From contig NZXU01000054.1 in NCBI GenBank assembly GCA_002698425.1, forward strand, positions 1-21,261: a stretch of DNA of 21,261 nt. The letters run 5' to 3'. This document shows, one piece after another, positions 1 through 16,059 of the stretch (position 1 is its first letter; each line of letters starts with the position of its first letter). The notes below the pieces were generated by a model, which was given only the letters and a program-made list of their open reading frames with translations, made no database searches and had not been told where the DNA came from. The stretch comes from Ahrensia sp. (GTDB lineage: Bacteria; Pseudomonadota; Alphaproteobacteria; Rhizobiales; Rhizobiaceae). The position numbers and the translations under genes were made by a program.

Positions 1-806
1 CCCATCGAACCACCAAAAGCGTCGCCGTCCGGTTGGATGCCTGTTTTCAGCGCATAAGCCAGATTGGACACAGTCCAGCCCTTTTCCTTCAGCACATCCC
101 TCCTGATCGAAGGGGACTTGCCGCCATCGGGCAGACTGTCTGATCCATGCAGGCGCAATTCCGCCTGTCGGGCACCCGCGAAGTTCCGTGGCGTGTGGCA
201 GGCACCGCAATGCGCCGGCCCTTCAACGATATATTTGCCGCGGTTCCATGCATCCGATCTCGCCGGATCAGGTTCGAATGTCTTGTTTTCCAGGAATGCG
301 GCGCGCCAAAGCTTCAGACCCTCGCGGAAGTTGAAGGGGACCGCCGTCTCCTGTGGTTTTGATGGCTCATCCACCGGCGGGACGGTCTGGAAAGCCGCCC
401 AGAGATCGGCGATGTCCTGGTCTGTCAGCCGGGAATAAAACGGGTAGGGAAATGCCGGATAGTAAGGCTTGCCTTCCCGGGAAACGCCCTGCCGGACCGC
501 CTTGGCGAAGTCTTCAACCGACCACGCACCTATCCCGTAGGTCGTGTCTGTCGTGAGGTTGGGCGAGTGGAAGGTGCCGAACTGGGTCGGCAATGCCAGG
601 CCGCCAGCAAGCGGAGCGCCGCCGTTCTCGGCATCTGTGTGGCAGGCTATGCACCCGGCCATGCGCGCCAGATAGGCACCACGGTTCGCGTCACCCAGTT
701 CTGCGTTCAAGGTGACGGTTTTTCCGATAGGCCACCAATATAGGCCGGCAACCGCCACGCCGGCCAATGCCAGCGCAGCAGCTCCCAGGAGGAGCAACGT
801 TTTCAT
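1..806 (-). CDS. Diheme c-type cytochrome (partial, runs off left edge)
   Basis: Open frame on the minus strand starting at 806 and still open at base 1, so at least 268 codons with the C-terminus missing. The N-terminus is a signal peptide or anchor of about 22 residues (MKTLLLLGAAALALAGVAVA). Two heme-binding CXXCH motifs are visible, CIACH at residues 52-56 and CGACH about 140 residues later. Each is followed by the usual Gly/Pro-rich stretch, with PFPYFYSRLTD-like text between them (here PAFPYPFYSRLTD). This is the layout of membrane-attached di- or triheme cytochrome subunits of periplasmic dehydrogenases, and of related stand-alone electron carriers. A third heme could lie beyond the edge. 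It begins 3 bases after the c556-like gene and is the last visible gene of a minus-strand cytochrome operon. The partner dehydrogenase cannot be named from this window. Confidence 0.9.
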   Translation of the reverse strand, partial: MKTLLLLGAAALALAGVAVAGLYWWPIGKTVTLNAELGDANRGAYLARMAGCIACHTDAENGGAPLAGGLALPTQFGTFHSPNLTTDTTYGIGAWSVEDFAKAVRQGVSREGKPYYPAFPYPFYSRLTDQDIADLWAAFQTVPPVDEPSKPQETAVPFNFREGLKLWRAAFLENKTFEPDPARSDAWNRGKYIVEGPAHCGACHTPRNFAGARQAELRLHGSDSLPDGGKSPSIRRDVLKEKGWTVSNLAYALKTGIQPDGDAFGGSM

Positions 807-809
807 GTG

Positions 810-1409
810 TTACTTCTTCTCCAGCCGGAATTTGGTATGGCAGGAAGAACACGTCTGGGCCACCATGTTGAAGACGCTGTCGGCGGGCATGGTTGCCAAT
901 TGCTCGGCGGTCATCATCGGTTGTGTCGAGCCCATCATGCCCGATCCGCCACCCATCATTCCGTTTTGGCTGCCCATCATCATGGAGTTGTTGTTGTCCA
1001 TCATCGAGCCTTGCGCGTCGCCCGACATGGCAAGGCCGTTGTCAGCGGCGCTTTCCAGCCCGGTTGCATAGGTTTCCAGCTGACTGGCCAGTGCTTCAAA
1101 GGCCTCCCAGTCAGTCCAGATTTCTGCCCGGGCTTCGGAAGGTGCCTCGGTCGTTCCTTCCGGAAACAGCGAGGTCATGGCTTTGCCGGCGTGGGATTTG
1201 ATGATCAGCGCCCCCGCCTGCACCGACGCTGCATCGTAATCGACCTCGCCGCGCATCATCGCCGAAAGGGATTTGACGACCTTGCTCATGTCCATCATGG
1301 CATCCATGCGCTGCTTGTATATTCCGGTGGCGCCGCCATGGGCATATGCCGCGACGCCACCTGCAAGGATGATGAATGCTGCCGCGGCAGCTGCAATTCT
1401 TGTTCTCAC
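810..1409 (-). CDS. Cytochrome c556-like (class II) protein with Met-rich insert
   Basis: 199 residues from a GTG start, chosen because an AGGAGAG ribosome binding site lies 7 bases upstream. There is a signal peptide (about residues 1-23), then a helical region. The single heme motif CSSCH lies near the C-terminus (residues 187-191), followed by TKFR, which is diagnostic of class II cytochromes (c-prime/c556). M35 in the first helix (KQRMDAM) is a candidate sixth heme ligand. Between the third and fourth helices there is an extra, low-complexity segment (residues 128-166) with 12 Met in 39 positions, mostly as MM pairs spaced by Gly, Ser and Asn. Ordinary family members are about 150 residues and lack this. 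Met pairs in periplasmic proteins commonly bind Cu(I), so a metal-binding role is possible, but that is inference. It sits 3 bases before the diheme cytochrome gene. Confidence 0.88.
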   Translation of the reverse strand: MRTRIAAAAAAFIILAGGVAAYAHGGATGIYKQRMDAMMDMSKVVKSLSAMMRGEVDYDAASVQAGALIIKSHAGKAMTSLFPEGTTEAPSEARAEIWTDWEAFEALASQLETYATGLESAADNGLAMSGDAQGSMMDNNNSMMMGSQNGMMGGGSGMMGSTQPMMTAEQLATMPADSVFNMVAQTCSSCHTKFRLEKK

Positions 1410-1460
1410 GATTTCTCTCCTGAATGATCTCTTCGATGGCCAGGAATGCTGGCTGTTTCG

Positions 1461-1823
1461 TCAGAAGAGGATCCGCGGAGGTGGCGGGTCGAAACCGGAC
1501 GTGACGCCCGCATAGTTCATGGCACCTGCCGGTCCATGCAGTTCCGTGCGACAGCGGCTTTTGATTTCGATGGATTCGACCGGCAGAAGGATAGGCGCAC
1601 CACAATGCATTGCGCGCGTCCCGTCCGACTGGTTTTGCGAAGTCCGCTCCGTGTGATCATGTGAGCCGTCGGCGAGAACGGCCTGGATCGGCCCGGCGTG
1701 TTCATGCGGCATCATATCAAAATGCGTGAACCTGCCGCCGGCAAGGACAAGCATGAAGACGGCCAGTACAGTGACCGGCCACTTCATCCACACAATCTTG
1801 CCCTCGATGTCATATCCCCTCAT
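1461..1823 (-). CDS. Small envelope protein with His/Met and single HC motif
   Basis: No named family is recognised. The 120-residue frame begins at an ATG that shares one base with the stop of the cytochrome gene at 1823-2272 (TGATG), which suggests translational coupling. An internal ATG at residue 13 (MKWPVTVLAVFMLVLAGG) gives a cleaner signal peptide and may be the true start (1461-1787). After the hydrophobic segment there is an HFDMMPHEH stretch (residues 34-42) and another HDH (55-57). These are followed by the HCGAPIL motif (Cys74), a second Cys at 91, and a C-terminus of FDPPPPRILF. The His/Met content suggests periplasmic metal contact, without proof. The layout resembles the protein at 16426-16785 (HC followed by PAIL, and a Pro-rich FxPP end), so the two may be distant paralogues. 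Confidence 0.65.
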   Translation of the reverse strand: MRGYDIEGKIVWMKWPVTVLAVFMLVLAGGRFTHFDMMPHEHAGPIQAVLADGSHDHTERTSQNQSDGTRAMHCGAPILLPVESIEIKSRCRTELHGPAGAMNYAGVTSGFDPPPPRILF

Positions 1824-2272
1824 CAGAATATTCCGTTCGCCTTTTGCAAGGCTCGGACGTAGGCGATAATCTTGTCAACGTCTTGTTCGCTGACACCCGG
1901 TACCGGCGGCATGTTCCCAAAACGCCAGTGATGGGCGCGCACTCCGTTTTTTGCCGCAAGCTGAAAAGCTGCATCGCCATGGTGGTTGGGCTCATAGATC
2001 CTGTGAACGAGGGGCGGAGCCGTACCATCCTGCCCGGCCGCATTAACACCGTGGCAAGTGGCACAATTCGCTTCAAACGCTATTCGTCCCGCTTCCGCTT
2101 TGGGCGAAAGCCCGGGAACTGCAACCGTGGCAAGAGCCGCACCAGCCTCCCCGGGTGTCACCTGTACCGAATGAGGATTCTGCTCCCGAGGAGAGCCTGT
2201 CCAAACATTTTCATAGACAACTACAAATATTCCGAGGCTAAAAACCCCAACAACGATGTATTTTGGGTTCAT
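1823..2272 (-). CDS. Monoheme class I cytochrome c
   Basis: 149 residues. The N-terminal hydrophobic segment (residues 4-20) without an obvious cleavage site suggests a membrane-anchored cytochrome facing the periplasm. The heme motif is CATCH at residues 70-74, preceded by GRIAFEAN. The likely sixth ligand is Met121 in GNMPPVPG, and the C-terminal helix DVDKIIAYVRALQ is typical of class I cytochromes c. It is the first gene of the minus-strand cytochrome group, with an AGAAGGGAA ribosome binding site just before the ATG. It overlaps the next gene by one base. It probably shuttles electrons between an inner-membrane complex and a periplasmic enzyme, but the partner is not visible. Its maturation requires the Ccm system, part of which is encoded at 6200-10391. 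Confidence 0.92.
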   Translation of the reverse strand: MNPKYIVVGVFSLGIFVVVYENVWTGSPREQNPHSVQVTPGEAGAALATVAVPGLSPKAEAGRIAFEANCATCHGVNAAGQDGTAPPLVHRIYEPNHHGDAAFQLAAKNGVRAHHWRFGNMPPVPGVSEQDVDKIIAYVRALQKANGIF

Positions 2273-2404: not shown

Positions 2405-3142
2405 TCATTTCTTATCGTCTCTCGCTCGTGCATTATCTACAAGGCCTGCCAGTTTCTCCTTCTCCACGAACCCGGCCACTAGCTCATCACCAATAACAAA
2501 CGACGGCGTACCATTGAAACCGAGCTGCTGGGTAAGACGCATTGAAGTAGAAATGTGCTGCTCGATCGACGGGTCGTTCATGTCATTACTCAATTGCTCC
2601 AGATCGAGGCCGACCTGCTTCGCCACCCGGAGGACAGATGCTTCTTCGGCGCGCTCCTGGAGTGCCATCAATGCCCAGTGGAACTCCGCATACTTGCCCT
2701 GCTCCCGAGCAGCAAGCGCCGCTCGAGCCGCAAATACCGACCCCTCACCCAGTATCGGCCACTCCCGATAAACGAGCCGTATATTTGCGTCTTCTTTCAG
2801 GAGAGCTTGAATTTCGGGCTTCACACGCCGGCAATAGGGACAATTGTAGTCAAAGAACTCTACAATTGTTACATCACCATTCGGGTTTCCAAGTACAGGT
2901 GCATTTGAATCCCGCTCCAACATATCGCGTTGACTTGTAAGCACTTCCGTCTGGGCAACGGCCTGCGCCTCCGCTTCACGCTTTCTCAAAATTTCCACCG
3001 CTTCCATCACGATTTCCGGTTTTTCCCGGATCGCTTCAAGGACAAGCGCTTTTACGCGCGCTTCATCCAAATCATCCGCAGCGGCACCGAACGGAAACGC
3101 AGTCAGCACCACTGCTGCAAACGACCAAGACTTGAAATTCAT
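2405..3142 (-). CDS. ScsC-like DsbA-family thiol:disulfide protein
   Basis: 245 residues from the ATG at 3142, chosen because GAGG lies just upstream and a signal peptide follows (MNFKSWSFAAVVLTAFPFGAAA). The frame stays open further upstream but without protein-like content. After the signal comes an Ala/Glu-rich helical stretch (residues 24-75, EARVKALVLEAIREKPEIV), like the N-terminal oligomerisation stalk of ScsC and Com1-type proteins. Next is a DsbA-like thioredoxin fold with active site CPYC (Cys101, Cys104, in FFDYNCPYCRR) and the cis-Pro loop GTPSFVIG. In the Scs system ScsC is a periplasmic disulfide isomerase kept reduced by ScsB and protective against copper. The ScsB-like gene lies at 3895-6009 on the other strand, which supports that pairing. 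It is transcribed divergently from the DUF2933 gene. Confidence 0.9.
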   Translation of the reverse strand: MNFKSWSFAAVVLTAFPFGAAADDLDEARVKALVLEAIREKPEIVMEAVEILRKREAEAQAVAQTEVLTSQRDMLERDSNAPVLGNPNGDVTIVEFFDYNCPYCRRVKPEIQALLKEDANIRLVYREWPILGEGSVFAARAALAAREQGKYAEFHWALMALQERAEEASVLRVAKQVGLDLEQLSNDMNDPSIEQHISTSMRLTQQLGFNGTPSFVIGDELVAGFVEKEKLAGLVDNARARDDKK

Positions 3143-3266
3143 GCGCAACCTCAAAACCCGACAAAAAGGCCCCCGCCTTTCAATCGACAATTCTCTGGAA
3201 ATCAATTCCATCAGAATATCATTCTGAAAATGCCCGAACCGGTTTTTTTTGTAACCAAATGTATCC

Positions 3267-3297
3267 TTGACCTTTCCCTGCGGAAGGGCTGCAAATA
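3267..3297 (+). promoter_or_regulatory. Candidate MerR/CueR-type promoter-operator
   Basis: A -35 element TTGACC (3267-3272) is separated by an unusually long 19-base spacer from a weak -10 (CAAATA, 3292-3297). Within the spacer lies an imperfect dyad, CCTTTCC at 3271-3277 and GGAAGGG at 3282-3288, with one mismatched pair. Long spacers with an internal CCTTCC/GGAAGG dyad are the hallmark of promoters controlled by MerR-family metal regulators such as CueR and HmrR. The half-sites here are about 2 bp closer than in the classic copA promoter, so the match is not exact. It would drive the DUF2933 gene starting at 3329. No MerR-family gene is in the window. Confidence 0.5.
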
Positions 3298-3328
3298 CGG
3301 AAAATCGCTTAGGAAAAAAGAAAATCCG

Positions 3329-3619
3329 ATGCCTACCAAATCCCAAGTTAGAATGAATACCCAGTCGAACCTGATGCGCTTTGGGATGATGGCCTGTTGT
3401 GTCGTCATGCTGTTGCCCATAGCCGGGTTTTTCGTGGCTGGCGGCAGCTTGGCCGGTCTTTGGACTAAAGCAGGATTGTTCGCGCCGCTTCTGCTTTGCG
3501 TAGGCGCTCATCTCGTCATGCACAAACTGATGGGTAGATCATGCCATGCGGCAAAGAGTGAAAAGGAACTTCAGGCGGTACCAGTCCTTACGGATCAGCG
3601 AGCAGAAAATAGACAGTAA
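3329..3619 (+). CDS. DUF2933-like small membrane protein
   Basis: 96 residues from the ATG at 3329, chosen for an AGGA ribosome binding site at 3311-3314 and its place just after the MerR-like promoter. A second ATG at residue 9 is possible. Two hydrophobic segments are seen, about residues 17-40 and 48-66. The end of the second reads LLLCVGAHLVMHKLMGRSCH, giving His61, Met64, His65, Met68, Cys72 and His73 as possible metal ligands. The LLLC-x3-H-x2-MH pattern fits the DUF2933 family, small proteins often found in copper and other heavy-metal gene clusters; no biochemical role is established. It is divergent from the scsC-like gene. The assignment rests on pattern recognition only. Confidence 0.75.
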   Translation: MPTKSQVRMNTQSNLMRFGMMACCVVMLLPIAGFFVAGGSLAGLWTKAGLFAPLLLCVGAHLVMHKLMGRSCHAAKSEKELQAVPVLTDQRAENRQ

Positions 3620-3894: not shown

Positions 3895-6009
3895 ATGTCG
3901 AAGCTTACGGGAACCTTGATTGGCGCACTCGGGCTGGTGCTGCTTTCAACTTATCTGGCAGTTGCGAAATCATCGATCCCGTTCACTTCTCCTGCCGTGA
4001 CAGCAAAACTTGTCACTGCCCAGAATGGTGTGCCACCGGGCGCGGAATCCCTGTCAGCAGGCCTCGACCTGGATCTTGGTGAAGGATGGAAAACATATTG
4101 GCGGTCACCAGGCGAGGTCGGCATCCCGCCACGGGTCGATTGGTCAAGATCGCGAAATGTTGAACGGGTGGATTTCCTCTGGCCCGCGCCTGCACGCTTC
4201 GCTGCCTTTGGCATAGAAAACTTCGGCTACAAAGACGAGGTCTTGTTTCCGCTTCGCATTATTCTGAAGCGCGCCGGTGAGCCGGTCCATCTTTCGGCAA
4301 CAGTGAACCTGCTGACCTGTTCCGAGGTCTGCGTACCCCAAAACTTCGATTTGGAGTTATCTTTAAGCCAAGGGTCATCGATCGACCAGATATCGGCTGA
4401 CAGAATTGGCGCCTATCTCAAACGAATTCCGGACGAAGAGGAAAAGGCGGGCATTACCTCTTCCGAAGCACACCTCGACGAGAAGCGCACAAAGCTGACC
4501 GTCGAACTGGAAAGCGACATCCCCTTCAAGACACCGGACATCTTTCCTGAACTGGGCGACGGAAGTGCGTTAGGAAAACCTGATATTCGCCTTAGCGGGA
4601 ATCGCCGCCTCCTGTGGGCATCTTTTCCCGTGTTGGCCATCTACAAAAACGGTTTGATACCCCCTCGGATCACCGTGACCGACGGATCCGCTCGGTCACT
4701 GACCGTGGTCCCGAATTTGATAAAGTCCGCCCCTCCCCCTCCAACTTCGATCGAAGAACAGGCTCCCGCACTGGGTGAACTTCTTTGGATCGCGTCGATC
4801 GCGTTTATCGGCGGACTTATCCTCAACGTCATGCCCTGTGTTCTTCCGGTCTTGTCGGTAAAACTATACTCGGCAACGAAACAGCAAGGACGGACGGCAT
4901 GGGCGACGCGCGCCGGTTTCCTCGTGGCAGCCGCAGGGACAATGACATTCATGTGGGCGCTTGCCTCGGCCCTATTCGGTCTTCGGTGGATCGGCGTGAC
5001 CATCGGCTGGGGATTGCAATTCCAGAATCCCGCTTTTCTCACCCTTATGTTCGTGATCCTTGTCGTGTTCGCAACAAACCTTTTTGGTTTTTTTGAGATT
5101 ACTCTGCCTACCGCCATCCAGAATCGCCTGTCGAGGTCTGGGGGCAACAATGGCTACTTATCCGACTTCTTTACCGGATTGTTTGGGGCGGTCCTGGCGA
5201 CCCCGTGCTCTGCACCTTTCCTGGGCACCGCGGTCGCATTTGCACTCGCCGGGCGCGGAATCGATATTTTTATAGTATTTACAAGCCTTGGACTTGGTCT
5301 CGCACTCCCCTATCTCGCTATCGCCTCTGCGCCCCGACTGGTGAATGTTCTCCCAAAGCCGGGGGTATGGATGACGACGCTACGGTTTGTCTTGGGCGCT
5401 TTGTTGCTCGCTACCACGGCTTGGCTGCTGACGGTTTTAATCGGAGTAGCCGGTAAGTATGCAGCTTTTACTGTCCTGATGTCGACGACAGCTCTAGTAA
5501 CTGTACTGGTTTGGCGGCGGCTTGGGGCAGCCCTGCGCTGGAGCAGTATCACCATCTTCGCGATCCTCCCCCTGTTCGCCGCAGAGGTTCTCACGGAGGA
5601 TGAGGTAACTTCAGCAAGCAATGGAGAGAGCTTGAGCTGGGTTTCTTTTGACCGTGCGCAAATCCCGCGCCTTGTGTCGCGAGGTCAGACCGTATTCGTC
5701 GATGTAACTGCCGATTGGTGCCTGACCTGCAAGGCGAACAAAGCTCTGGTCCTGGATCGCGATCCTGTTGCATCGCGGTTGGACACGGAGGGCGTGACGC
5801 TCATGCGTGCGGATTGGACCAAACCTGACGAGCGCATTTCGAAATTTCTTGAGAGCTACGGCCGCTATGGCATTCCGTTCAATGCGGTCTTTGGCCCCGG
5901 CGCCCCGGACGGCATCGTGCTATCAGAGATTTTATCAAGCGCCAAGGTTATCGAGTCCCTGGATATGGCAACAAAAAAAGCTGATGATACTATGGCCGGA
6001 AGACGGTAG
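3895..6009 (+). CDS. ScsB/DsbD-like transmembrane thiol:disulfide reductase
   Basis: 704 residues with the full three-part layout of ScsB/DsbD proteins. There is a signal peptide (about 1-24), then a periplasmic N-terminal region (25-290) carrying TCSEVCVP with Cys142 and Cys146. The membrane domain follows, of about eight helices (295-565), with NVMPCVLPVLSVK (Cys315) and LATPCSAPFLG (Cys438) as the electron-relay cysteines. Last is a C-terminal thioredoxin domain with ADWCLTCK (Cys609, Cys612). Such proteins carry electrons from cytoplasmic thioredoxin across the inner membrane to periplasmic partners. The long N-terminal domain and the nearby ScsC-like gene favour ScsB over a plain DsbD, but CcmG is another possible client because ccmFGHI follow convergently. 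All six cysteines are kept, so the protein should be active. Confidence 0.92.
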   Translation: MSKLTGTLIGALGLVLLSTYLAVAKSSIPFTSPAVTAKLVTAQNGVPPGAESLSAGLDLDLGEGWKTYWRSPGEVGIPPRVDWSRSRNVERVDFLWPAPARFAAFGIENFGYKDEVLFPLRIILKRAGEPVHLSATVNLLTCSEVCVPQNFDLELSLSQGSSIDQISADRIGAYLKRIPDEEEKAGITSSEAHLDEKRTKLTVELESDIPFKTPDIFPELGDGSALGKPDIRLSGNRRLLWASFPVLAIYKNGLIPPRITVTDGSARSLTVVPNLIKSAPPPPTSIEEQAPALGELLWIASIAFIGGLILNVMPCVLPVLSVKLYSATKQQGRTAWATRAGFLVAAAGTMTFMWALASALFGLRWIGVTIGWGLQFQNPAFLTLMFVILVVFATNLFGFFEITLPTAIQNRLSRSGGNNGYLSDFFTGLFGAVLATPCSAPFLGTAVAFALAGRGIDIFIVFTSLGLGLALPYLAIASAPRLVNVLPKPGVWMTTLRFVLGALLLATTAWLLTVLIGVAGKYAAFTVLMSTTALVTVLVWRRLGAALRWSSITIFAILPLFAAEVLTEDEVTSASNGESLSWVSFDRAQIPRLVSRGQTVFVDVTADWCLTCKANKALVLDRDPVASRLDTEGVTLMRADWTKPDERISKFLESYGRYGIPFNAVFGPGAPDGIVLSEILSSAKVIESLDMATKKADDTMAGRR

Positions 6010-6199: not shown

Positions 6200-7354
6200 C
6201 TAATTCCCGAGTTTTTTCAAGCCATTCTCAATCTGAACGCGCCGCGAGTCGTTTTCGGGCACGTCGCCCAGAAGTGCCCGTGCTTTCACATAGGCAGCAA
6301 TTGCCTTATTACGCTCTCCGATGACGCTGTAAGCATTGGCAAGGCGAAGCCATCCGTCAAGATCTTCCGGCTGGCTCTCGAGCCTCGAAGCTAAGCGCTC
6401 CACCATTGAACGGATGAACGCCGCCCGATCTTCGCCGCTCATTGCCTGGGCGGCTGCAATATCCGCCGCTGTCGGACCACCTCTCCCCCCTGAAGCGTAG
6501 TCGGACATTCGCACCTCCGGCTTTCCGATACTTTCGCTGATGCGATTAGCTTCGCCCACGAATGCTTCCATCCACGGCGCAAAATCATCGGCGGTCTCCA
6601 ACCGCCCGATCAGCAGATCATATGCCGCACTGGCATCACCGATCTGCTGCAGCGAAACAGCTTTGTAGAAGATGGCAGCGGGATTTCTCGCATCGAGTTC
6701 GATAGCCTTTTCTATCGCGATTTGCGCATTCGGCGTCACTATTCCGGCTTCCGCATTGATCAAAGCTTCGGCGAGCAACGACCATATAGCCGAGTTTGCG
6801 TCATCGCGCTGTACAACTACCTCAAACGCGTTGGCCGCATCTGCAAACAGTCTCAATCGCATGTAAGACTGCCCCAGAAGCATCCACCCATCGGTAGCTC
6901 CACCATTCGGGTCCGCCAGCAAACGTCCCCTCAATGTTTCGGTAAGTTCGGCAATTCGCTGTTCCTCTGCGCGTTGGAAGCGGCGTTCCGCGTAAGTTTG
7001 ACTGGCGAGACCGGGTGAGCCGTTGACTGCATAGAAACCGAATGCGAAGGCGGGCGCTATAAAAGCTAAGGCGATAATAGCCAGGCGGCCCTCGCCGGCC
7101 CTCATGGCCGCTGGTTCGGCTATTCGTCTCGACCGGGCCAGAATACGCCTTTTTATTTCCAACTGCGCAGCCGAAGCCTCCTCCGAGGCAATCAGGCCCC
7201 GATCTAGATCTCTTTGCACTTCGTCGAGCTGATCCACCAGGATCAACGGCACAGAATCGTCATCCGTCAAAACGGGAGAGTTGCGCATTGCAAGCGGCAA
7301 GAGTACCAGCCCTGCCGCCAAAAGCGCCAGAGCGCCAAAACCAATCCAGATCAT
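6200..7354 (-). CDS. ccmI: Cytochrome c maturation protein CcmI
   Basis: 384 residues. Two transmembrane helices (about 1-23 and 91-110) flank a cytoplasmic loop carrying DQLDEVQRDLDRGLIASEEA, the conserved N-terminal CcmI signature. The rest (about 120-384) is a periplasmic helical region with TPR-like repeats (GWMLLGQSYMRLRLFADAANAFE; GWLRLANAYSVIGERNKAIAAY). In Ccm system I, CcmI holds the C-terminus of apocytochrome c and passes it to CcmF/CcmH for heme attachment. Its ATG overlaps the ccmH stop by 4 bases, and it is the last gene of the operon that starts at 12898. It faces the scsB-like gene across a short convergent gap. The length is normal for the alphaproteobacterial family. Confidence 0.93.
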   Translation of the reverse strand: MIWIGFGALALLAAGLVLLPLAMRNSPVLTDDDSVPLILVDQLDEVQRDLDRGLIASEEASAAQLEIKRRILARSRRIAEPAAMRAGEGRLAIIALAFIAPAFAFGFYAVNGSPGLASQTYAERRFQRAEEQRIAELTETLRGRLLADPNGGATDGWMLLGQSYMRLRLFADAANAFEVVVQRDDANSAIWSLLAEALINAEAGIVTPNAQIAIEKAIELDARNPAAIFYKAVSLQQIGDASAAYDLLIGRLETADDFAPWMEAFVGEANRISESIGKPEVRMSDYASGGRGGPTAADIAAAQAMSGEDRAAFIRSMVERLASRLESQPEDLDGWLRLANAYSVIGERNKAIAAYVKARALLGDVPENDSRRVQIENGLKKLGN

Positions 7355-7836
7355 GTCCGATTCCCAGCCTGTTGCGCTTTTACGAACTCCCGGACCTCTG
7401 CCTCTTCCTCCGCGCTCAACACGTCCGCGCCGGGCTTGCTTCGGTGCCGAACAAGGATGATGGCACCCGCCAATAGTACCACTACTGCGAACGCTGCCGG
7501 CGTAAGCCAGAGCACAGCGGTCTTTGGCTGGAACGGCGGGTTGAGCAAAACGAAATCTCCGTAGCGCGCCCGAATGAAATCAAGGACTTCCTTGTCATTG
7601 TCACCCTCGATAAGCCGTTCCCGAACCATCAGCCGCAGATCGCGCGCAACACCTGCATTCGAACTGTCGATGTCCTGGTTCTGGCAGACGACACACCGCA
7701 ACTTTTTCGAAATATCGCGTGCGCGCGCTTCCAACACCGGATCCGGCAGTATTTCGTCGGGTTCCACTGCATATGCCGATACTGGCGGCAACAGCAGTAC
7801 AACCATGATGACCAATATCCTGAACATTCTCATCAC
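7351..7836 (-). CDS. ccmH: Cytochrome c maturation protein CcmH (thiol reductase subunit)
   Basis: 161 residues. A signal peptide (1-23) is followed by the CcmH domain with LRCVVCQNQDIDSSNA (Cys48, Cys51) and the family motif DLRLMVRERLIEGDND. Next comes YGDFVLLNPPF, and then a C-terminal transmembrane helix (about 106-127) and a short cytoplasmic tail. CcmH reduces the CXXCH thiols of apocytochrome c, taking electrons from CcmG, before CcmF attaches heme. It overlaps ccmG upstream and ccmI downstream by 4 bases each (ATGA type), so the three are translationally coupled. It is also called CycL or CcmL in rhizobia. Confidence 0.95.
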   Translation of the reverse strand: MMRMFRILVIMVVLLLPPVSAYAVEPDEILPDPVLEARARDISKKLRCVVCQNQDIDSSNAGVARDLRLMVRERLIEGDNDKEVLDFIRARYGDFVLLNPPFQPKTAVLWLTPAAFAVVVLLAGAIILVRHRSKPGADVLSAEEEAEVREFVKAQQAGNRT

Positions 7837-8390
7837 TCGCTCGCGAACGCGCCGGCTTGTTTAAGCACCGTTCCGATTTTCCTCACGGCCTCGTCGCCAA
7901 TGATGGGACCGACATAGCGATAAAGCACGGTGCCGGTTTCCCCGACTATGAAGGTTTCGGGCACGCCGGAAATCCCCCATTCGATTCCGGCGCGGCCAGT
8001 CAGATCGGACCCGATACGCTCATAAGGATTCCCAAGTTCAGATAGCCAGCGCACGGCATCTGCAGGCTGGTCCTTGTAGTTGATTCCGAACAGGCGAATG
8101 CCTTCCCTCTCGACAAGATCCGTGAGCACCCGGTGTTCGGCGCGGCATGGCACGCACCACGACGCGAAAACATTCACGACGATAGGCTGGCTAGCGTTCA
8201 CCAAATCCGATCGCGCGAGCCCCGGAACGGATAAGCCTTCAATGGCTTCAAGTTGAAACTCTGGGACGGGTTGCGCAATCAGTACCGAGGGTATTTCGTT
8301 CGGATCACGGTCTGGATTGAGGCCCCAGAGGAAAAAGATCCCGAGAAAAAGCGCTATGAAAAAGGGCAATGATGCAAGCAATCGTGCCAT
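7833..8390 (-). CDS. ccmG: CcmG/DsbE membrane-anchored thioredoxin
   Basis: 185 residues. One N-terminal transmembrane anchor (about 5-23) precedes a periplasmic thioredoxin fold. The active site is FASWCVPCRAEH (Cys79, Cys82), and the CcmG-specific GINYKDQPADAVRWL insert and cis-Pro loop GVPETFIV (Pro143) are present. CcmG keeps CcmH and apocytochrome c reduced and is itself reduced by a DsbD/CcdA-type protein; the ScsB-like protein at 3895-6009 is a candidate donor. It starts 3 bases after ccmF and overlaps ccmH by 4 bases. Confidence 0.95.
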   Translation of the reverse strand: MARLLASLPFFIALFLGIFFLWGLNPDRDPNEIPSVLIAQPVPEFQLEAIEGLSVPGLARSDLVNASQPIVVNVFASWCVPCRAEHRVLTDLVEREGIRLFGINYKDQPADAVRWLSELGNPYERIGSDLTGRAGIEWGISGVPETFIVGETGTVLYRYVGPIIGDEAVRKIGTVLKQAGAFASE

Positions 8391-8393
8391 GAC

Positions 8394-10391
8394 TTATTCC
8401 GCTGGAACCGCCTGTGCATCTTTTACGGCGGGCCGTGGCGCCCCAACGCGCAAACGTCTGTCCGATAGCGACACCCCCCCTCCTAAAAATAATATTAGCG
8501 ACCCTACCCAGATCAGATTTACTAGAGGTTCGTAGAGAATGCGCAAAGTCCATTGACCGCTTTCTCGCGCCTTCTTTGACGAGGGCTCTGATATCGACGC
8601 ATATAAGTCTCCGGCCAAGGTCGAACGTATCGCTGACTCTGTAGTCGAACTTTGTGCGACGGGGTAGTTACGGCGTTCCGGGAAGAGTGTGGTGACAAGT
8701 TTTCCGTCTTTCTTAACCGATAACGAACCACGCTCGGCGAAGTAGTTTGGGCCTCTCACCCTCTCGACACCGTTAAAGGTTACCTCAAATCCCGCGATGG
8801 AAACAACGGAGCCCGGTTCAACGAAAGCGATTTCTTCGGACTTCCATATGCTCGAGCCGATGAAGCCGAACATCGCAATGGACAGGCCGACATGCGCCAA
8901 TGTCATCCCGTGAGCGGCGCGCGGGAGACCTTTCGCTCGGCGCAACGCTGTCGCCATCGGCAGCTCGAAAAGACGAATTCTCAATGCCCATTCTCTGACC
9001 GTTGCCAGGAACAGCCAAACTGAGAAAAAGATTGAGACATAACCCAGTACAGGTCCACCGCTGATAAAGTACCAAGCGGCAAGCGTGGCTAGCACGGTTA
9101 GCACTGCGACGAACTTCAAACGCTGCAGCACGCCTTTGAAGTCCGATCGCTTCCAAGACAAAAACGGCCCTATCCCCATGATGAATATGAGAGGCAGCAT
9201 AATGGGAACGAAGGTTATATTGAAAAAAGGCGGACCTACCGAGACTTTTTCACCCGTGACTGCTTCGAGAAACAACGGGTAGAGCGTGCCAACAAGCACA
9301 CTACCGGTTGCAGCCGCGAGAATCAGATTGTTAAGCATAAGACCGGACTCACGACTGATAGGCTTGAATAGTCCACCGCCTTCCATCATCGGCGCCCGCC
9401 ACGCGTAGAGAGCAAGCGAGCCACAAATGGAAATGCCGAGTAACATGAGGATATACAGACCGCGTTCCGGATCGACCGCGAATGCATGGACCGAGGTCAA
9501 CAGACCGGAGCGAACTATGAACGTTCCTAACAGCGAAAGAGAAAACGTGAGGATTGCCAGCAAGATTGTCCAGCTTTTGAAAGCATCACGCTTTTCCGTC
9601 ACGATGGCCGAATGCAACAAGGCGGTTCCCAATAGCCACGGCATGAAACTCACATTCTCGACTGGATCCCAAAACCACCATCCGCCCCAACCGAGTTCAT
9701 AGTAAGCCCACCACGATCCGAGCGCGATCCCGGCGGTAAGACTCATCCAGGCCGCCAAGGTCCATGGTCGGACCCATCGAGCCCAAGCGGCATCGATGCG
9801 GCCTTCGAGAAGCGCGGCGACAGCAAAAGAAAAAACAATCGAAAACCCGACATAACCAAAATATAGGAGTGGCGGATGCATGGCGAGACCGACATCCTGC
9901 AGAAGCGGATTAAGGTCACGTCCATCTGGCGGCGGCGGAAAGACGCGTTCAAACGGATTTGAAGTAAGCAATAGAAACGACAAGAAACCTACGCTGATCC
10001 ATGCCTGCACAGACAATGTACGCGCCTTGACGGCTTCGGGAATGTTTGAGCCAAACAGGGAAACACTGGCACCAAATACGACAAGGATAAGCACCCAAAG
10101 CAGCAGCGACCCTTCGTGACTACCCCAAGTACCGGCCACTTTGAACAACAGCGGCTTTAGTGAATGAGAATTCTCCGCGACATTCAAAACGGTGAAATCG
10201 CTAACTACAAACGACCACATGAGACTGGCGAAGGCGAGCGCGACGAACAGCAACTGGCCGACCGATGTCGCTCGGGTTGACCCCATCCAGAGAAGGTTCT
10301 TCTTCGCAACTCCGATCAGCGGAAGTACGCTTTGCACGAGGGCAAGAGCGAGCGCCAAGGCTAGCGCGAAATGACCCATTTCAGGTACCAT
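8394..10391 (-). CDS. ccmF: Cytochrome c heme lyase subunit CcmF
   Basis: 665 residues, full length, with many transmembrane helices. MVPEMGHFALALAL is the usual CcmF start. The heme-handling tryptophan-rich motif reads GWGGWWFWDPVENVSFMPW (about residues 234-252). Conserved flanking His positions include SHEG (residues 91-94), MHPPLLY (171-177), LLHSAI (258-263) and a later TSVHAF. CcmF is the inner-membrane core that takes heme from holo-CcmE and joins it to reduced apocytochrome with CcmH/I. GAGG lies just upstream of the start. A 64-base gap separates it from the SHOCT gene. No ccmE, ccmA, ccmB, ccmC or ccmD is in the window, so it must depend on a CcmE made elsewhere. Confidence 0.96.
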   Translation of the reverse strand: MVPEMGHFALALALALALVQSVLPLIGVAKKNLLWMGSTRATSVGQLLFVALAFASLMWSFVVSDFTVLNVAENSHSLKPLLFKVAGTWGSHEGSLLLWVLILVVFGASVSLFGSNIPEAVKARTLSVQAWISVGFLSFLLLTSNPFERVFPPPPDGRDLNPLLQDVGLAMHPPLLYFGYVGFSIVFSFAVAALLEGRIDAAWARWVRPWTLAAWMSLTAGIALGSWWAYYELGWGGWWFWDPVENVSFMPWLLGTALLHSAIVTEKRDAFKSWTILLAILTFSLSLLGTFIVRSGLLTSVHAFAVDPERGLYILMLLGISICGSLALYAWRAPMMEGGGLFKPISRESGLMLNNLILAAATGSVLVGTLYPLFLEAVTGEKVSVGPPFFNITFVPIMLPLIFIMGIGPFLSWKRSDFKGVLQRLKFVAVLTVLATLAAWYFISGGPVLGYVSIFFSVWLFLATVREWALRIRLFELPMATALRRAKGLPRAAHGMTLAHVGLSIAMFGFIGSSIWKSEEIAFVEPGSVVSIAGFEVTFNGVERVRGPNYFAERGSLSVKKDGKLVTTLFPERRNYPVAQSSTTESAIRSTLAGDLYASISEPSSKKARESGQWTLRILYEPLVNLIWVGSLILFLGGGVSLSDRRLRVGAPRPAVKDAQAVPAE

Positions 10392-10455: not shown

Positions 10456-10773
10456 TCATTCTTCGAGAGCGGCTTTCCGCTTGCGATACTCGTCCTCATC
10501 GATTTCGCCTTTGGCAAATCTGTCTTTAAGAACATCGATCGCCTTGGAGGTGTGCGCACCGGATTTGTTATCGGTGAGCCAGCGAACTGCGAAAAAAACG
10601 AGTACGATTACAACTCCCCAGAACACCAACATCATGAGACCGCCCAGCATCCCATATCCTCCGCCCCACGCCATATGGGTATAGTCACGGATCCAGGGCC
10701 CTTCCGGATCTGCCTTTGCACCCGAAGTCACAAACAAAGTCGCCAGTCCCATAGCTACTGATCTTAGTCTCAT
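10456..10773 (-). CDS. SHOCT-domain small membrane protein
   Basis: 105 residues from the ATG at 10773, chosen because AAGAGG lies just upstream and a signal-like segment follows (MRLRSVAMGLATLFVTSGAKA). A Gly/Met-rich linker (HMAWGGGYGMLGGLMM) leads into one transmembrane helix (about 44-66). It ends with a SHOCT domain (about 77-104, IDVLKDRFAKGEIDEDEYRKRKAALEE). SHOCT is a short C-terminal helix pair found at the end of many membrane proteins, and this protein type is frequent in metal-resistance and respiratory clusters; its function is unknown. It lies 23 bases after the sensor kinase gene and ahead of ccmF on the same strand, so it probably shares the operon. Confidence 0.85.
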   Translation of the reverse strand: MRLRSVAMGLATLFVTSGAKADPEGPWIRDYTHMAWGGGYGMLGGLMMLVFWGVVIVLVFFAVRWLTDNKSGAHTSKAIDVLKDRFAKGEIDEDEYRKRKAALEE

Positions 10774-10796
10774 CTCAGTGCCTCTTCTTGAGTGAA

Positions 10797-12179
10797 TTAT
10801 GCCGAGATTGGTATTGTAATAGTGACGCACAGGCCGCCTTGTTCCCGGTTCTGAAGCGCTATGTCTCCGCCGTGCCCGCGAATGATTGTGCGTGCGATTG
10901 CCAATCCCAAGCCGTAGCCTCCTGTCTCCAGCGATCTCGAAGTTTCCAGCCGGAAAAATGGCTCGAACACCCGTTGGAGTTCAGCTTCTGGAATGCCGGG
11001 GCCATCATCATGGACTGTGATGACCAATTCATCTCCGCGCGTGAAATATCGAACATGCGCGGAACCACCATAGCGAATTGCGTTCTTGATGACGTTGCGC
11101 AATGCCCTCCGCAAAGCGGTAGGCCGGAACCGCGCCAAGACTTCTGGACCGGTTTCCAAGGAGAACGAGGAATTAGGTTCCAATTTCAATCCGAGGAAGA
11201 ACTCTTGGACATTAACTTCCTCCGTATCCTCGATAGCGCTCATTCCGCGTGCGAAGACCAGCGTAGACTCCACCATAGTTTGCATTTCTTCGATTGAAGC
11301 GATCAGACTCTCGCGGGTTTCCTGGTCATCAACCATCTCGCTTCGTACTCGCATGGCGGTGAGCGGAGACCTCAGATCGTGCCCCAGAGCTGCCAGCAAA
11401 AGCGTGCGATCGGAAATGAAGCGCGTGAGCCTATTGTGCATCTGGTTAAAAGCGAACGTGAGTTGCCGGATTTCGCTTGGACCAGACATCTTGAGGTTGG
11501 CGACACCCTCGCCCCGGCCTAGTTTCTCGGCAGCTACAGCGAGGCGCCGCAACGGCCCTGTTAACTGAGTAAGGAGAAACCAAAAGACGGCGACAAGTAT
11601 CGCAGCTGCTGTAAGCGCAAAAGTCACCATCGAATAGACCGGCCATTGAAGCGGCGGTCGCTCAAATCGTGTACCGACATTCAGCCATTGGCCGCCCGAT
11701 AACGCGATCGATAGGTTCATCTCAACGGCGGAAAGCTCACCGCGCATCATCGCAATATGCATTTCAGCCATGTCGGGCGACAAATGGGGCAACGGTAGTA
11801 TCCGGCCCTCGATTTGGTGCAGCTCAACACGGATATCACGACTGTAGGTGTCGCCCAACAAGGTTCGAATACGGGATTCGACCACGCCCCCGCCGGCGGG
11901 ATCATTATGATCAACAGCCGCGTGTTCACCTATCTCAAATCTCACCAAAGGCGAATTTGCTGCTCTTAGTATTGATTCTCGAAGATCCGGCGATGCTTCT
12001 TCTATTAATTTTGCCACATTTGCGGCACGTCCTGCTGCTTCGAATCCGAGTGCGGCCCTGACCGCTAAACTTCGCTCGTCGGCGAAAAACCACAAACTAA
12101 ACAACTGCGCAATTATCAGAGCAGCAATTACTAGCAGCACTAATTGCAATCGCAGGCTATTAAGAGAAACCCGGATCAT
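10797..12179 (-). CDS. Membrane sensor histidine kinase
   Basis: 460 residues. TM1 (about 10-32), a periplasmic sensor region (33-180) and TM2 (about 183-205) come first. A HAMP domain follows (206-258), then the dimerisation/phosphoacceptor box ALGHDLRSPLTAMR with His267. The ATP-binding boxes are N (NVIKNAIRYGG, 362-372), G1 (DDGPGIP, 391-397), F (FEPFFR) and G2 (GYGLGL, 421-426). This is the EnvZ/QseC-like orthodox kinase layout and all catalytic residues are present. The sensor region holds a Met/His-rich stretch (His132, Met137, Met140, His141, Met144, Met145, Met154) that could bind a metal; this is inference. Its start overlaps the response regulator stop by 4 bases, so the two form a cognate pair. 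Confidence 0.95.
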   Translation of the reverse strand: MIRVSLNSLRLQLVLLVIAALIIAQLFSLWFFADERSLAVRAALGFEAAGRAANVAKLIEEASPDLRESILRAANSPLVRFEIGEHAAVDHNDPAGGGVVESRIRTLLGDTYSRDIRVELHQIEGRILPLPHLSPDMAEMHIAMMRGELSAVEMNLSIALSGGQWLNVGTRFERPPLQWPVYSMVTFALTAAAILVAVFWFLLTQLTGPLRRLAVAAEKLGRGEGVANLKMSGPSEIRQLTFAFNQMHNRLTRFISDRTLLLAALGHDLRSPLTAMRVRSEMVDDQETRESLIASIEEMQTMVESTLVFARGMSAIEDTEEVNVQEFFLGLKLEPNSSFSLETGPEVLARFRPTALRRALRNVIKNAIRYGGSAHVRYFTRGDELVITVHDDGPGIPEAELQRVFEPFFRLETSRSLETGGYGLGLAIARTIIRGHGGDIALQNREQGGLCVTITIPISA

Positions 12180-12898
12180 TCCAGAACCTCTATATTCACC
12201 GCAAGGCAGTACCCTTCATTCCGAACGGTCTTGATGATTTTCGGTCGCAGGACATCAACCTCTATCTTCCGCCTGAGACGACTGATTTGGTTATCGATGG
12301 TACGGTCGAGTGGCCCCGCCGACCTTCCGGCGGTGAATTCGAGTAACTGCTCGCGGCTCAACACCAAACGCGCTCGTTTGAGAAGTATGATTAGAAGCTT
12401 GAAGTCCGAGGACGTGAGACGGATTTCATTATTCGCCTCATCGACAAGCACATGCTTGTCAACATCGAAAACCAAATGCCCGAAGCGTATGCGCTTCCCG
12501 GCGAAATCGCCTGCGTGCTTCTCCATCTGTCGCGAACGACGTAAAATTGCCTTTATGCGCGCCAATAGTTCGCGAGGATTGAACGGTTTCGCCAGATAAT
12601 CATCGGCTCCGGTCTCAAGGCCGACAATTCGATCGGTTTCCTCGCCCAATGCCGTTAGCATTAAGATTGGAAGATCGCGCTCAATTGAAAGCCGACGACA
12701 CAGGGACAATCCACTCTCGCCAGGCATCATCACATCGAGGACCAAGAGGTCGAAATGGCCGGTCGAGAGCCTCTCGTCCGCCTCGCGGGCGTCCTTTGCA
12801 CATGTCGCCTGCATCCCGCTTTTTTCGAGAAATCGCTTAACGCTTTCCCGAATCTCTTTGTGATCGTCAACGACGAGTATGTGCGGAACAACAGACAC
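12176..12898 (-). CDS. OmpR/PhoB-family response regulator
   Basis: 240 residues from a GTG start preceded by AGAAGAGAA. The receiver domain has the acidic pair D11-D12 (VVDDHKE), phosphoacceptor D55 (LLVLDVMMPG), T82 (LTAL) and K104 (LAKPF), all intact. A winged-helix DNA-binding domain follows (about 135-235), ending in RTIDNQISRLRRKIE and TVRNEGYCL. It is the first gene of the minus-strand operon and is coupled to the kinase gene by a 4-base overlap. It probably controls this operon and perhaps the neighbouring cytochrome, scs-like and DUF2933 genes, but no binding site could be assigned. No clear promoter was recognised in the 130 bases upstream. Confidence 0.95.
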   Translation of the reverse strand: MSVVPHILVVDDHKEIRESVKRFLEKSGMQATCAKDAREADERLSTGHFDLLVLDVMMPGESGLSLCRRLSIERDLPILMLTALGEETDRIVGLETGADDYLAKPFNPRELLARIKAILRRSRQMEKHAGDFAGKRIRFGHLVFDVDKHVLVDEANNEIRLTSSDFKLLIILLKRARLVLSREQLLEFTAGRSAGPLDRTIDNQISRLRRKIEVDVLRPKIIKTVRNEGYCLAVNIEVLE

Positions 12899-13466: not shown

Positions 13467-13841
13467 ATGAGACGGAAATCCGGGACACAGAAAGAGCCGG
13501 CAGAGAAGGTCATCAAGGACATCCGCCGCGCCACCCGCAAACAGTATTCGGCGGAGGAGAAGATCCGCATCGTGCTGGAAGGCCTGCGTGGCGAGGAGAG
13601 CATTGCCGCGCTGTGCCGGCGTTAGGGCATTGCCGAGAGCCTCTATTACAATTGGTCGAAGGAGTTCCGCGAGGCCGTCAAGAAGCGGTCGGCGGGCGAC
13701 ACCGCGCGTGCAGCCACCACCGACGAGGTGAAGGTGCTGCGCAAGGAGGCCCGCGACCTGAAAGAGGTCGTCGCTGAGCAGGCGCTGGAACTGCGGTTGG
13801 TCAAAAAAAGCATGATCGCGGATGGGGGCGACGACGCATGA
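13467..13841 (+). pseudogene. IS3-family transposase OrfA with internal stop
   Basis: Starting at the ATG at 13467 the frame reads as OrfA of an IS3-family element: a helix-turn-helix region (YSAEEKIRIVLEGLRGEESI, then AALCRR) and a leucine-rich coiled-coil end (TDEVKVLRKEARDLKEVVAE). A TAG at 13623-13625 interrupts it after AALCRR, where relatives have Glu (GAG), so a single base change explains the stop. After the stop the frame continues GIAESLYYNWSKEF to a TGA at 13839-13841. The ATGA at 13838 begins orfB, the usual IS3 overlap. Confidence 0.85.
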
Positions 13842-14118
13842 GATACCCCGCATCCGAGAAGCTGGAGATCATCCGGCTCGTCGAGCAGTCGCATCTTCCG
13901 GCCAAGCGCACGCTGGACAAGCTCGGCATTCCGCGCGCGACTTTCAATCGTGGTATGACCGCTTCCTGACAGGTGGCGTCGATGCACTGGAAGACCGCAA
14001 GCCTCAACCCAAGCGGGTCTGGAACCGCATTCCCGACGAGGTGCGCCAGAAGGTTATCGATCTAGCCCTCGATGAACCGGAGCTATCACCACGGGAACTG
14101 GCTGTGACATTCACGGAC
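13838..14118 (+). pseudogene. IS3-family transposase OrfB, N-terminal part, frameshifted and truncated
   Basis: From the ATG at 13838 the frame reads MRYPASEKLEIIRLVEQSHL and on to IPRATFNR, then stops after a few wrong residues. Losing one base near 13951 (NRWYDRF becomes NRGMTAS) explains this. The neighbouring frame continues WYDRFLTGGVDALEDRKPQP and later ELSPRELAVTFTD up to about 14118. There the IS3 text ends and IS5-type transposase begins. The DDE catalytic core of OrfB is missing. Confidence 0.85.
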
Positions 14119-14568
14119 ATTCCCGCCTTCGGCTACAAGAACCACGCGGCAATCGACCGGCACCATGGCTTCATCCGCGGCTGGAACGTGACGAGTGCGG
14201 CCGCCTGGGACGGTGCGCAGCTCCGCAATTTCCTGGACCGGAGCAATACAGGCTCGACGGTGTGGGCAGACACGGCCTACCGTTCGAAGGCGAATGAAGC
14301 CCGGCTCGAACGGCACGGCTTCATCTCCGACATCCATTCGAAGAAGCCAAAAGGGCGACCACTGGGCGAGGCGACGTCTTGCGCCAGGGTGCGGCGTCCA
14401 CGGATCCGGTCATGCATCGAGCATGTCTTTGCGCGGCAGAAGGCGCAGATGAACCACGTCGTGCGCACCATCGGCATGAAGCGGGCGCGGGTGAAGATCG
14501 GCATGTCCAACCTCGCTTACAACATGCTGCGTCTCGTCTGGCACGAGGGGCAACGTGCGCCCGCATGA
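14119..14568 (+). pseudogene. IS5-family transposase, C-terminal fragment
   Basis: The frame reads IPAFGYKNHAAIDRHHGFIR, then TVWADTAYRSKANEARLERH, a KKPKGRPLGE stretch, and RSCIEHVFARQKAQMNHVVR with a final NLAYNMLRLVW. These are the DDE transposase C-terminal motifs of IS5-family elements (Asp of WADTAY, Glu of IEHVFARQK). The N-terminal half with the first catalytic Asp is absent. It is fused in frame to IS3 OrfB text, so gene callers will report one 248-residue ORF (13822-14568); that ORF is an artefact of two elements. The right end of the fragment lies somewhere in 14569-14712. Confidence 0.85.
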
Positions 14569-14712
14569 CGCCGAAATGGCCCGAGCCGACAGCGCGCCGG
14601 CCCAAATCACACCTCGGAAGGTCAGAAAACCTCTGTAATCACAGCCGGCATCCAGCCAATCTGCGCATCTCGACCATTTCCGGGCCGCAAACGTCGGTCA
14701 TTAGAAGCGTCC

Positions 14713-14820
14713 GATTGGTTCCACAATCGTCGCTTGCTGAATTTCATCGGCAACACTCCGCCAGCAGAGGCCGAAGAAAAATTCAACGTAGCTCTGGAAA
14801 CTTCAGAAATGGCCACGTAA
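14713..14820 (+). pseudogene. IS3-family OrfB C-terminal tail
   Basis: 36 codons ending at TAA 14818-14820 read DWFHNRRLLNFIGNTPPAEA followed by EEKFNVALETSEMAT. This is the characteristic C-terminus of IS3-type OrfB proteins (WF-x-RRLL, then IGN-x-PPAEAE). It lies beyond the IS5 fragment, so the IS5 sequence probably landed in orfB and the middle was lost. The C-terminal end of IS3 may come from the same copy as the orfA above, but that is inference. Confidence 0.75.
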
Positions 14821-14857
14821 GTTATTGATCGGCCTCCGTCACACGCGGGGCGGTTCA

Positions 14858-15045
14858 GTTGCGATGGTTGGCTAGGCCTAAACATCTGCGTGACGCAATC
14901 GGCCAAATGGCGGAGCGGAGCTCCAAAGGAGCCTATGCACGATAGGCAAAAATAAAAATTGATCCATACAATCGGCAACGATCTGGGCTTAGGCTGACGC
15001 AGGCCGAGCTAAACCGTGCCGCATCGTTTTGGTCAGGATTCGCAA
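14858..15045. other. Intergenic region before the L,D-transpeptidase
   Basis: No gene is seen. A short hairpin GCTCC, 3-base loop, GGAGC occurs near 14919-14931. An A-rich stretch (14946-14958) precedes the gene by about 90 bases and may be part of its promoter, but no clear -35/-10 pair could be fixed. Confidence 0.35.
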
Positions 15046-16059
15046 ATGCCCCGGACAATCCTTATGTCGTCGCTTGTTTTCCTTTTTTCGCTTCTGGTGT
15101 CCGGCTGCGTCACCGTACTGGAAACGGTGAAGAAAGCCGATCAACCGATTCCCACTGAGCTCGTGGCGTCGATGCGGTCAAAGGGGATGACGTCTGCGGA
15201 CCCGGTTCTCATTCGGCTGTTCAAGGAAGAAAGCGAGCTTGAGGTCTGGAAGCGAGATAAATCGGGTCGGTATGCGCTCTTGAAGACGTTTCCGATCTGC
15301 AGGTGGTCGGGTCAACTCGGCCCGAAAACGCGTGAAGGCGATCGTCAGGCTCCGGAAGGCTTCTATCAAGTAATTCCCGCAGGACTGAATCCGAACTCGA
15401 ACTACTACCTCTCCTTCAATATTGGCTATCCGAACAAGCTTGAGCGCGCGCTCGGCTACACAGGCAGTGCAATCATGGTGCACGGGGCATGCTCGTCATC
15501 CGGCTGCTATGCGCTTACAGACCGCGGCATGGCCGAAATCTATCCCCTGTTGCGCGAAGCCGTAACGGCCGGGCAGAAATCCATACAGGTGCAAATCTTT
15601 CCGTTCCGCATGTCTGTCGCCAAGATGCTGGAACACGAAGGCAATCCAAATTCCCAGTTTTGGAAGAACCTCAAGGTCGGCTATGACAGCTTCGAACTGA
15701 GCAGGAAGCCCCCCTTGGTCGGCAGTTGCGGCGGACGCTACGTGTTCGCGTCCGCAACCGGCACGGAACTCCCGAACAATCCTTTGGGAGACTGTCCGGG
15801 AGGCGCGAGCAAGTCTATATTCGAGGTCGCGGCAAATGGGTCGCTCGACGGCGAGAGGTCTCCGCAGATTAATGGAAATCCACAGGCACCGGGAGCGCAC
15901 GCCTATTCGGACGGGAGCATGAACCCGTATTTCAGGAGGATCCTAGAGCAGAAAGGCGCCGCAAAGCTGGCGGAGATGACTTCACTTACTAACGTTCCGG
16001 TGAGCCGTCCACAGGCCGCCCTTTTCGAGCCACATTTGGCCGCCCCGATGACCGATTGA
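15046..16059 (+). CDS. L,D-transpeptidase (YafK/YkuD-type) lipoprotein
   Basis: 337 residues from the ATG at 15046; an ATG at 15016 is in frame, but 15046 gives the better signal peptide. MPRTILMSSLVFLFSLLVSGC ends in a lipobox (VSG-Cys21), so the protein should be lipidated by Lgt and anchored in the envelope. The catalytic domain carries GAIMVHG-like text (GSAIMVHGACSSSGCYALTD) with the expected His146 and Cys154 of the YkuD fold, preceded by the family's TREGDRQAPEGFY. Such enzymes cut or form links on peptidoglycan meso-DAP; YafK/DpaA removes lipoprotein anchored to peptidoglycan. The C-terminal 130 residues are longer than in YafK, with no recognised domain. An lgt gene lies 950 bases downstream on the same strand. 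Confidence 0.88.
   Translation: MPRTILMSSLVFLFSLLVSGCVTVLETVKKADQPIPTELVASMRSKGMTSADPVLIRLFKEESELEVWKRDKSGRYALLKTFPICRWSGQLGPKTREGDRQAPEGFYQVIPAGLNPNSNYYLSFNIGYPNKLERALGYTGSAIMVHGACSSSGCYALTDRGMAEIYPLLREAVTAGQKSIQVQIFPFRMSVAKMLEHEGNPNSQFWKNLKVGYDSFELSRKPPLVGSCGGRYVFASATGTELPNNPLGDCPGGASKSIFEVAANGSLDGERSPQINGNPQAPGAHAYSDGSMNPYFRRILEQKGAAKLAEMTSLTNVPVSRPQAALFEPHLAAPMTD

Follow-up and report, generated by a model that had tools for sequence, protein, structure and literature searches.

What is a run of paired methionines doing in a heme protein encoded among copper-tolerance genes? The question is raised by a gene near one end of the window, by which we mean the whole 21,261-nucleotide stretch of Ahrensia sp. 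DNA that was analysed. Among the open-licence PMC papers listed, none names a cytochrome c556 that is Met-rich and has a part in copper tolerance. The gene and the relevant parts of its product are:

810..1409, minus strand: class II cytochrome c (c'/c556-like, PF01322), 199 aa, GTG start.
1341..1409, minus strand: predicted signal peptide, residues 1-23; A21 and A23 nearly invariant, H24 invariant.
1296..1298, minus strand: Met38, candidate sixth heme ligand of the c556 type, invariant in the alignment.
912..1028, minus strand: Met-rich loop, residues 128-166; 12 Met, with MM runs at 136, 143, 151, 158 and 165.
837..851, minus strand: heme-binding CSSCH, residues 187-191 of 199; a C-terminal CXXCH, as in class II cytochrome c.

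The product of this open reading frame matches PF01322 (cytochrome c') with 83.9 bits against a curated cut-off of 26.5; this is its sole Pfam family, and none of the NCBIfam profiles matches it. The fold predicted for it is that of cytochrome c', an antiparallel four-helix bundle, which places it in class II, and the original prediction of a c556-like heme protein is supported. We aligned 91 of 121 proteins (the best 120 of 706 homologues and the window protein). Within this alignment C187, C190 and H191 are invariant, as are both M35 and M38, and Met38 would presumably be the sixth ligand, giving the Met/His heme ligation of the c556 subtype, whose six-coordinate low-spin heme takes its Met ligand from helix 1. 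The protein is probably exported to the periplasm; with the cleavage site read by eye from the AxA motif, the mature chain would start at the invariant His24. His24 and His73 are both invariant in the 91 proteins. A copper site formed by the N-terminal His24 of the mature protein with His73 was considered and rejected: 12 of the 60 Met-poor family members described below share both residues, so the pair does not set the copper branch apart. It may form a metal site or play a structural role.

The MM-pair insert with its 12 Met at residues 128-166 corresponds exactly to minus-strand positions 912-1028. It had been placed directly before the heme site, which is not the case: residues 167-186, 20 in all, separate it from CSSCH, and the heme helix is predicted at 176-194. 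The 39 residues comprise one single Met (128), four pairs (136, 151, 158, 165) and one triplet (143-145), spaced by Gly, Ser, Asn, Gln, Asp and Thr. Against a background of 2.27% Met (101 of 4447 residues in 13 other window ORFs) the binomial chance of at least 12 Met is about 4e-11. Its Gly and Ser residues are encoded by a mixture of codons, and the loop is therefore no simple repeat at the DNA level. In the predicted structure the loop replaces the turn between helices 3 and 4, and it is predicted to be disordered, with pLDDT below 50 at residues 132-145, 147-152 and 154-162.

Among the best 120 of 706 homologues, 119 have a CXXCH motif (P0020 lacks it) and every one of these 119 has at least 7 Met among the 60 residues that precede the motif; the insert is thus conserved, the first point on which homologues were to be checked. 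A fixed 45-residue stretch holds 6-15 Met, with a mean of 10.75, in 120 proteins among the best listed (window protein included, P0020 excluded). In the same 120 proteins successive MM runs are separated by 418 gaps of 2-19 residues. Of these, 336 are 6, 7 or 8 residues long, against about 89 after a shuffling that kept Met runs whole, and gaps of 3 or 4 residues do not occur. The length of the loop and its spacers vary, as might be expected of low-complexity drift in which a Gly/Met repeat is tolerated without function, and a Rhizobial branch without the MM-pair loop remains in copper clusters (see below). However, the Met positions are kept while the spacers vary (M137, M144, M151, M152, M158 and M159 are each retained in at least 90% of the 91 aligned proteins), the MM spacing is far from the shuffled expectation, and the Met-rich composition persists down to about 47% identity among the best 120 of the 706 homologues. 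Drift therefore seems to us very improbable, and Cu(I) binding by the loop is likely.

The genes around the c556 gene in the window are:

1..806, minus strand: diheme cytochrome c (PF00034), truncated by the window end; its start codon is 3 bp past the c556 stop.
1461..1823, minus strand: 120-aa protein containing His and Met, between two cytochrome genes; no Pfam match up to E 1.
1823..2272, minus strand: monoheme cytochrome c (PF00034, 51.8 bits), upstream of c556.
2405..3523, minus strand: DsbA-like thioredoxin (PF01323, 89.7 bits) with a ScsC_N-like segment.
3320..3619, plus strand: DUF2933 protein (PF11666, 35.9 bits), which recurs in these islands.
3895..6009, plus strand: DsbD-like thiol:disulfide reductase (PF11412, PF02683, PF13899).
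6200..10391, minus strand: cytochrome c maturation set (PF23914, PF03918, PF08534, PF16327/PF01578), comprising CcmI (6200-7354), CcmH (7351-7836), a CcmG-like protein (7833-8390) and CcmF (8394-10391).
10456..10830, minus strand: SHOCT-domain protein (PF09851, 32.9 bits), in the same place in loci L009, L010 and L159.
10797..12898, minus strand: histidine kinase and OmpR-type response regulator.

The ScsC_N-like segment of the DsbA-like protein scores 23.8 bits for PF18312, under the cut-off of 25.8, and the true start of this gene probably lies inside the ORF. Several of these neighbours recur beside c556 elsewhere (loci compared with the window carry L numbers): a cytochrome c gene is likewise upstream of it in L009, L012 and L159, and ccm genes are present in L009 (the same set), L010, L012, L159 and L164. 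Cytochrome c maturation is a major copper target according to PMC8456105, so the presence of ccm genes in these islands fits. Response regulator and ATP-binding (kinase) neighbours are found in L010, L012 and L163. A Cu-sensing role had been suggested for the c556 protein itself, and we found nothing further in its favour; with CueR or two-component regulators encoded in the same islands, and with cytochrome c' the only Pfam family and zero signalling domains in the protein, a copper sensor is scarcely credible.

Three loci (L001-L003) are near-identical to the window, at 97.0-97.6% over window positions 1-2080. The identity ends at 2080, inside the cytochrome c gene 1823-2272, and since similarity breaks within a gene a recombination mosaic in the island is suggested. 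Pieces of a DDE transposase (PF01609) and of an IS110-type transposase (PF01548/PF02371) lie at window positions 13822-14568 and 20214-21092. A Phycisphaerae MAG contig and Oricola indica (L001, L002) share 14.4 kb at 99%, which would reflect either mis-binning or recent transfer. In L003 the diheme cytochrome is complete, with 297 aa, two CXXCH motifs and one PF00034 stretch, and the genes after it, which stand in for the part of the island beyond the window end, encode a multicopper oxidase of 461 aa, two L,D-transpeptidases, DUF411, a putative cytochrome-c-like protein and a second multicopper oxidase. The L,D-transpeptidase genes (L003:13310-13867 and 14648-15313) recur in copper islands L012, L155 and L163; we know of no link between L,D-transpeptidases and copper.

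The second point to be checked was whether the insert tracks with copper genes. We surveyed 80 genome regions, each of at most 19.8 kb and hand-picked among the matches listed, sorting them by the number of Met in the 60 residues before CXXCH. At least 7 Met counted as Met-rich, a rule that admits L089 (7 Met, zero MM pairs), and three rows without CXXCH in the ORF were scored as Met-poor. The copper-gene probes were drawn from Met-rich clusters, so the survey favours the Met-rich group; on this footing 15 of the 16 Met-rich regions, but 5 of the 60 Met-poor ones, have at least one copper gene (Fisher p 8e-11, intermediates excluded), and at least two are present in 11/16 against 0/60 (p 8e-10). 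Intermediate regions (4-6 Met) have at least one in 1/4 and at least two in 0/4. The 16 Met-rich regions came from query-similar genomes (8, six of which repeat loci from another search), the PF01322 sample (5) and the query search (3). Removing one of the nearly identical loci L071 and L074 gives p 3e-10. The tracking with copper genes recurs in the PF01322-sample rows alone, with a copper gene in 5/5 Met-rich against 3/35 Met-poor, and in the nine genomes with Met-rich as well as Met-poor copies, where the figures are 11/11 and 2/15. P-type ATPase, CueR and multicopper oxidase occur in the same islands as Met-rich c556. In L070, L080, L081 and L082, four of the 15 Met-rich regions with a copper gene, the oxidase is the only one. 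In the remaining Met-rich region, L076, no copper gene was found within its 19.8 kb.

A match at E 1e-3 was present in 118 plasmid records, 59 of them typed as conjugative (loop-less Rhizobial copies included). All 14 examined plasmid regions with the c556-diheme pair hold a multicopper oxidase or another copper-annotated gene; for L161 the oxidase is the only copper-related gene. This last region lies on a Dysgonomonadaceae plasmid, which is assigned to Bacteroidota and bears a copy of the cytochrome-oxidase island; the c556 frame there has two stops as translated and is unannotated. The gene tables of these regions also bear on whether the Met pairs act as an antioxidant sink. Copper promotes oxidative damage, and in the Met-rich MrpX system Met residues absorb reactive oxygen and are repaired by Met sulfoxide reductases. 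Surface Met pairs could take up copper-made reactive oxygen in the same way, and two copies (L011, L155) have an annotated ferric-reductase-like membrane protein nearby. Against this, the gene tables of the 14 plasmid regions name no Met sulfoxide reductase (incomplete tables, names only), and the regular MM pairing would be better accounted for by metal binding, so we consider an antioxidant role improbable.

The loop is not a fixture of the copper context. Six Rhizobial plasmid copies (L150-L154, L156; hosts Agrobacterium, Sinorhizobium, Phyllobacterium, Shinella and Mesorhizobium) sit in copper clusters without an MM-pair loop. They have a short insert; the 60 residues ahead of CXXCH contain 4-7 Met and either one MM pair or none, and the lone MM pair of L150 and L154 falls in the heme helix; the diheme gene is absent from all six regions. 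In the copy from Gemmobacter (L155), also in a copper cluster, the insert is long and the counted stretch contains 3 Met, and L096 holds c556, diheme cytochrome and multicopper oxidase without a Met loop. The original prediction had regarded close homologues without the insert in the same copper clusters as telling against it. This objection holds in part: loop-less homologues do occur there, but the six Rhizobial copies and L155 are not close, at 26-34% identity. Genes for DUF305 (6/6) and for a four-helix bundle copper-binding protein (5/6) are found in the Rhizobial copper-cluster regions.

We placed these copies in an unrooted tree of 61 rows, drawn without L078, L085, L093, L106, rows under 60 bits and L157-L164. 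The six Rhizobial copies and L077 form a branch (100/99), 6/7 of which are in copper clusters, and this joins the loop-bearing L081 and L082 and the intermediate L084 (96/93). With rich defined as at least 7 Met and at least one MM pair, which excludes L089 and counts L154 as rich, a test for correlated change on the tree gave 3 well-supported independent pairs (sign test p 1), and with only 3 such pairs correlated evolution of loop and copper context is not demonstrable. From the loop-less copies in copper clusters (Rhizobial, L155, L096) it follows that the copper context belongs to the clade; the loop is usual, not obligatory.

A same-strand diheme gene begins about 0-16 bp past the c556 stop in 30/30 regions (16 Met-rich genome regions and 14 plasmid regions, which include L155 with its Met-poor loop and L161 with its interrupted frame; gene starts were estimated from alignments). 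An MCO1-type multicopper oxidase then follows in 19/30 (10 genome and 9 plasmid regions). Met-poor and intermediate regions have a same-strand diheme gene downstream in 26 of 64 cases, at 35-54% identity to the probe and within about 150 bp of c556 in 25 of the 26; two of these regions (L096, L146) also hold an oxidase. The pair therefore seems older than the loop. Its conservation is the best hint that c556 still passes electrons, and the earlier suggestion of an electron carrier gains from the tandem diheme gene.

The same observations bear on whether the protein might be a pure Cu(I) sponge, in which Cu(I) in the periplasm is buffered by the loop, as by other Met-rich copper proteins, while the heme protein serves as a mere exported scaffold with no copper redox role. 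The predicted disorder of the loop and its variable length would suit such a sponge, and so would the O2-independent copper resistance conferred by R. capsulatus CutO, for which the authors invoke sequestration (PMC8456105). However, the heme motif and M38 are invariant in the 91 proteins, and the adjacent diheme gene in 30/30 regions, and in 26/64 of the Met-poor and intermediate ones, suggests that a redox pairing is kept. A sponge alone is thus possible but rather doubtful.

The Met content of the neighbouring oxidases is uneven (the annotated oxidase piece of L164 was omitted from the count). The oxidase directly after the pair has at most 5 Met in any 45-residue stretch in 17 of 18 distinct cases, the exception being L079 (10), whereas the oxidases examined in the clusters of the six Rhizobial copies and L155 have 9-11 Met in 6/6 (L150, L151, L153-L156; L152 lists none). 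This raises the idea of a split cuprous oxidase, in which the Cu(I)-capturing Met segment that CueO and CutO have in their own chain would sit on the cytochrome, with none on the partner oxidase, and electrons from Cu(I) would pass to the c556 heme and on to the diheme cytochrome. If true, copper would be detoxified without O2 at the oxidase. We consider it unlikely, since L096 and L146, whose c556 is loop-less too, have Met-poor oxidases (5 and 3) and nine loop-bearing islands have a Met-rich oxidase (7-14 Met), as a second oxidase in L070, L071, L074 and L080 and as the sole one examined in L010, L086, L087, L158 and L162.

The reading we favour, and hold to be slightly better than an even bet, is that a periplasmic electron-transfer cytochrome of the c556 type, partner of the diheme cytochrome encoded just downstream, has gained a Cu(I)-binding loop with which it buffers Cu(I) and probably aids its oxidation. 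An old c556-diheme electron-transfer pair would have been recruited into mobile copper-tolerance islands, where the c556 would have acquired its long, disordered MM-pair loop, able to bind several Cu(I) ions. One and the same chain would then capture periplasmic Cu(I) and bear a redox-active heme, so that Cu(I) is buffered, and its oxidation would probably be helped in one of two ways: either the adjacent multicopper oxidase takes over the Cu(I), or c556 passes electrons on to the diheme cytochrome and the respiratory chain. That electrons flow, and which way, is an inference, and so, though a reasoned one, is redox coupling between Cu(I) and the c556 heme. Met-only sites favour Cu(I), so its oxidation by the c556 heme may be uphill.

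Protection by R. capsulatus CutO even under anaerobic growth and with its T1 copper ligand removed (PMC8456105) raises the question of how bacteria render periplasmic Cu(I) harmless in the absence of O2. One candidate route that can be tested is cytochrome-linked, through a plasmid-borne c556 that has a possible Cu(I) loop and is paired with a diheme cytochrome and often with an oxidase. Such a route, if true, would help to explain the cytochrome c maturation genes in these islands.

The listed solved cytochromes c' and c556 (PF01322; among them R. palustris c', 1a7v, and c556, 1s05) have 123-135 residues. Unlike them, the cytochrome described here has about 45 MM-rich residues between helices 3 and 4, and its gene sits in copper islands. 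The Rhizobial copper-cluster branch belongs to the same c556 family but has no long MM loop, and its six plasmid copies have no diheme partner. PcoE, SilE and CopM are Met-rich, exported, copper-binding periplasmic proteins, to our knowledge without heme; they share with c556 the occurrence of a Met-rich exported protein in copper clusters, and c556 differs in having a redox cofactor on the same chain. The likeness to CueO and CutO is of another kind, a Met-dense and here presumably periplasmic segment (12/39 Met in the window protein) tied to a redox protein in copper-tolerance clusters (PMC8456105). According to that paper, R. capsulatus CutO, which has its own Met-rich segment, protects from copper even anaerobically and without its T1 copper ligand, the O2-independent protection being put down by its authors to sequestration. 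Deletion of the CutO segment does not abolish copper resistance there (PMC8456105), so a Met-rich segment need not be decisive. Unlike CueO and CutO, to which it is unrelated, the carrier of the Met-rich segment here is a heme cytochrome and not a multicopper oxidase.
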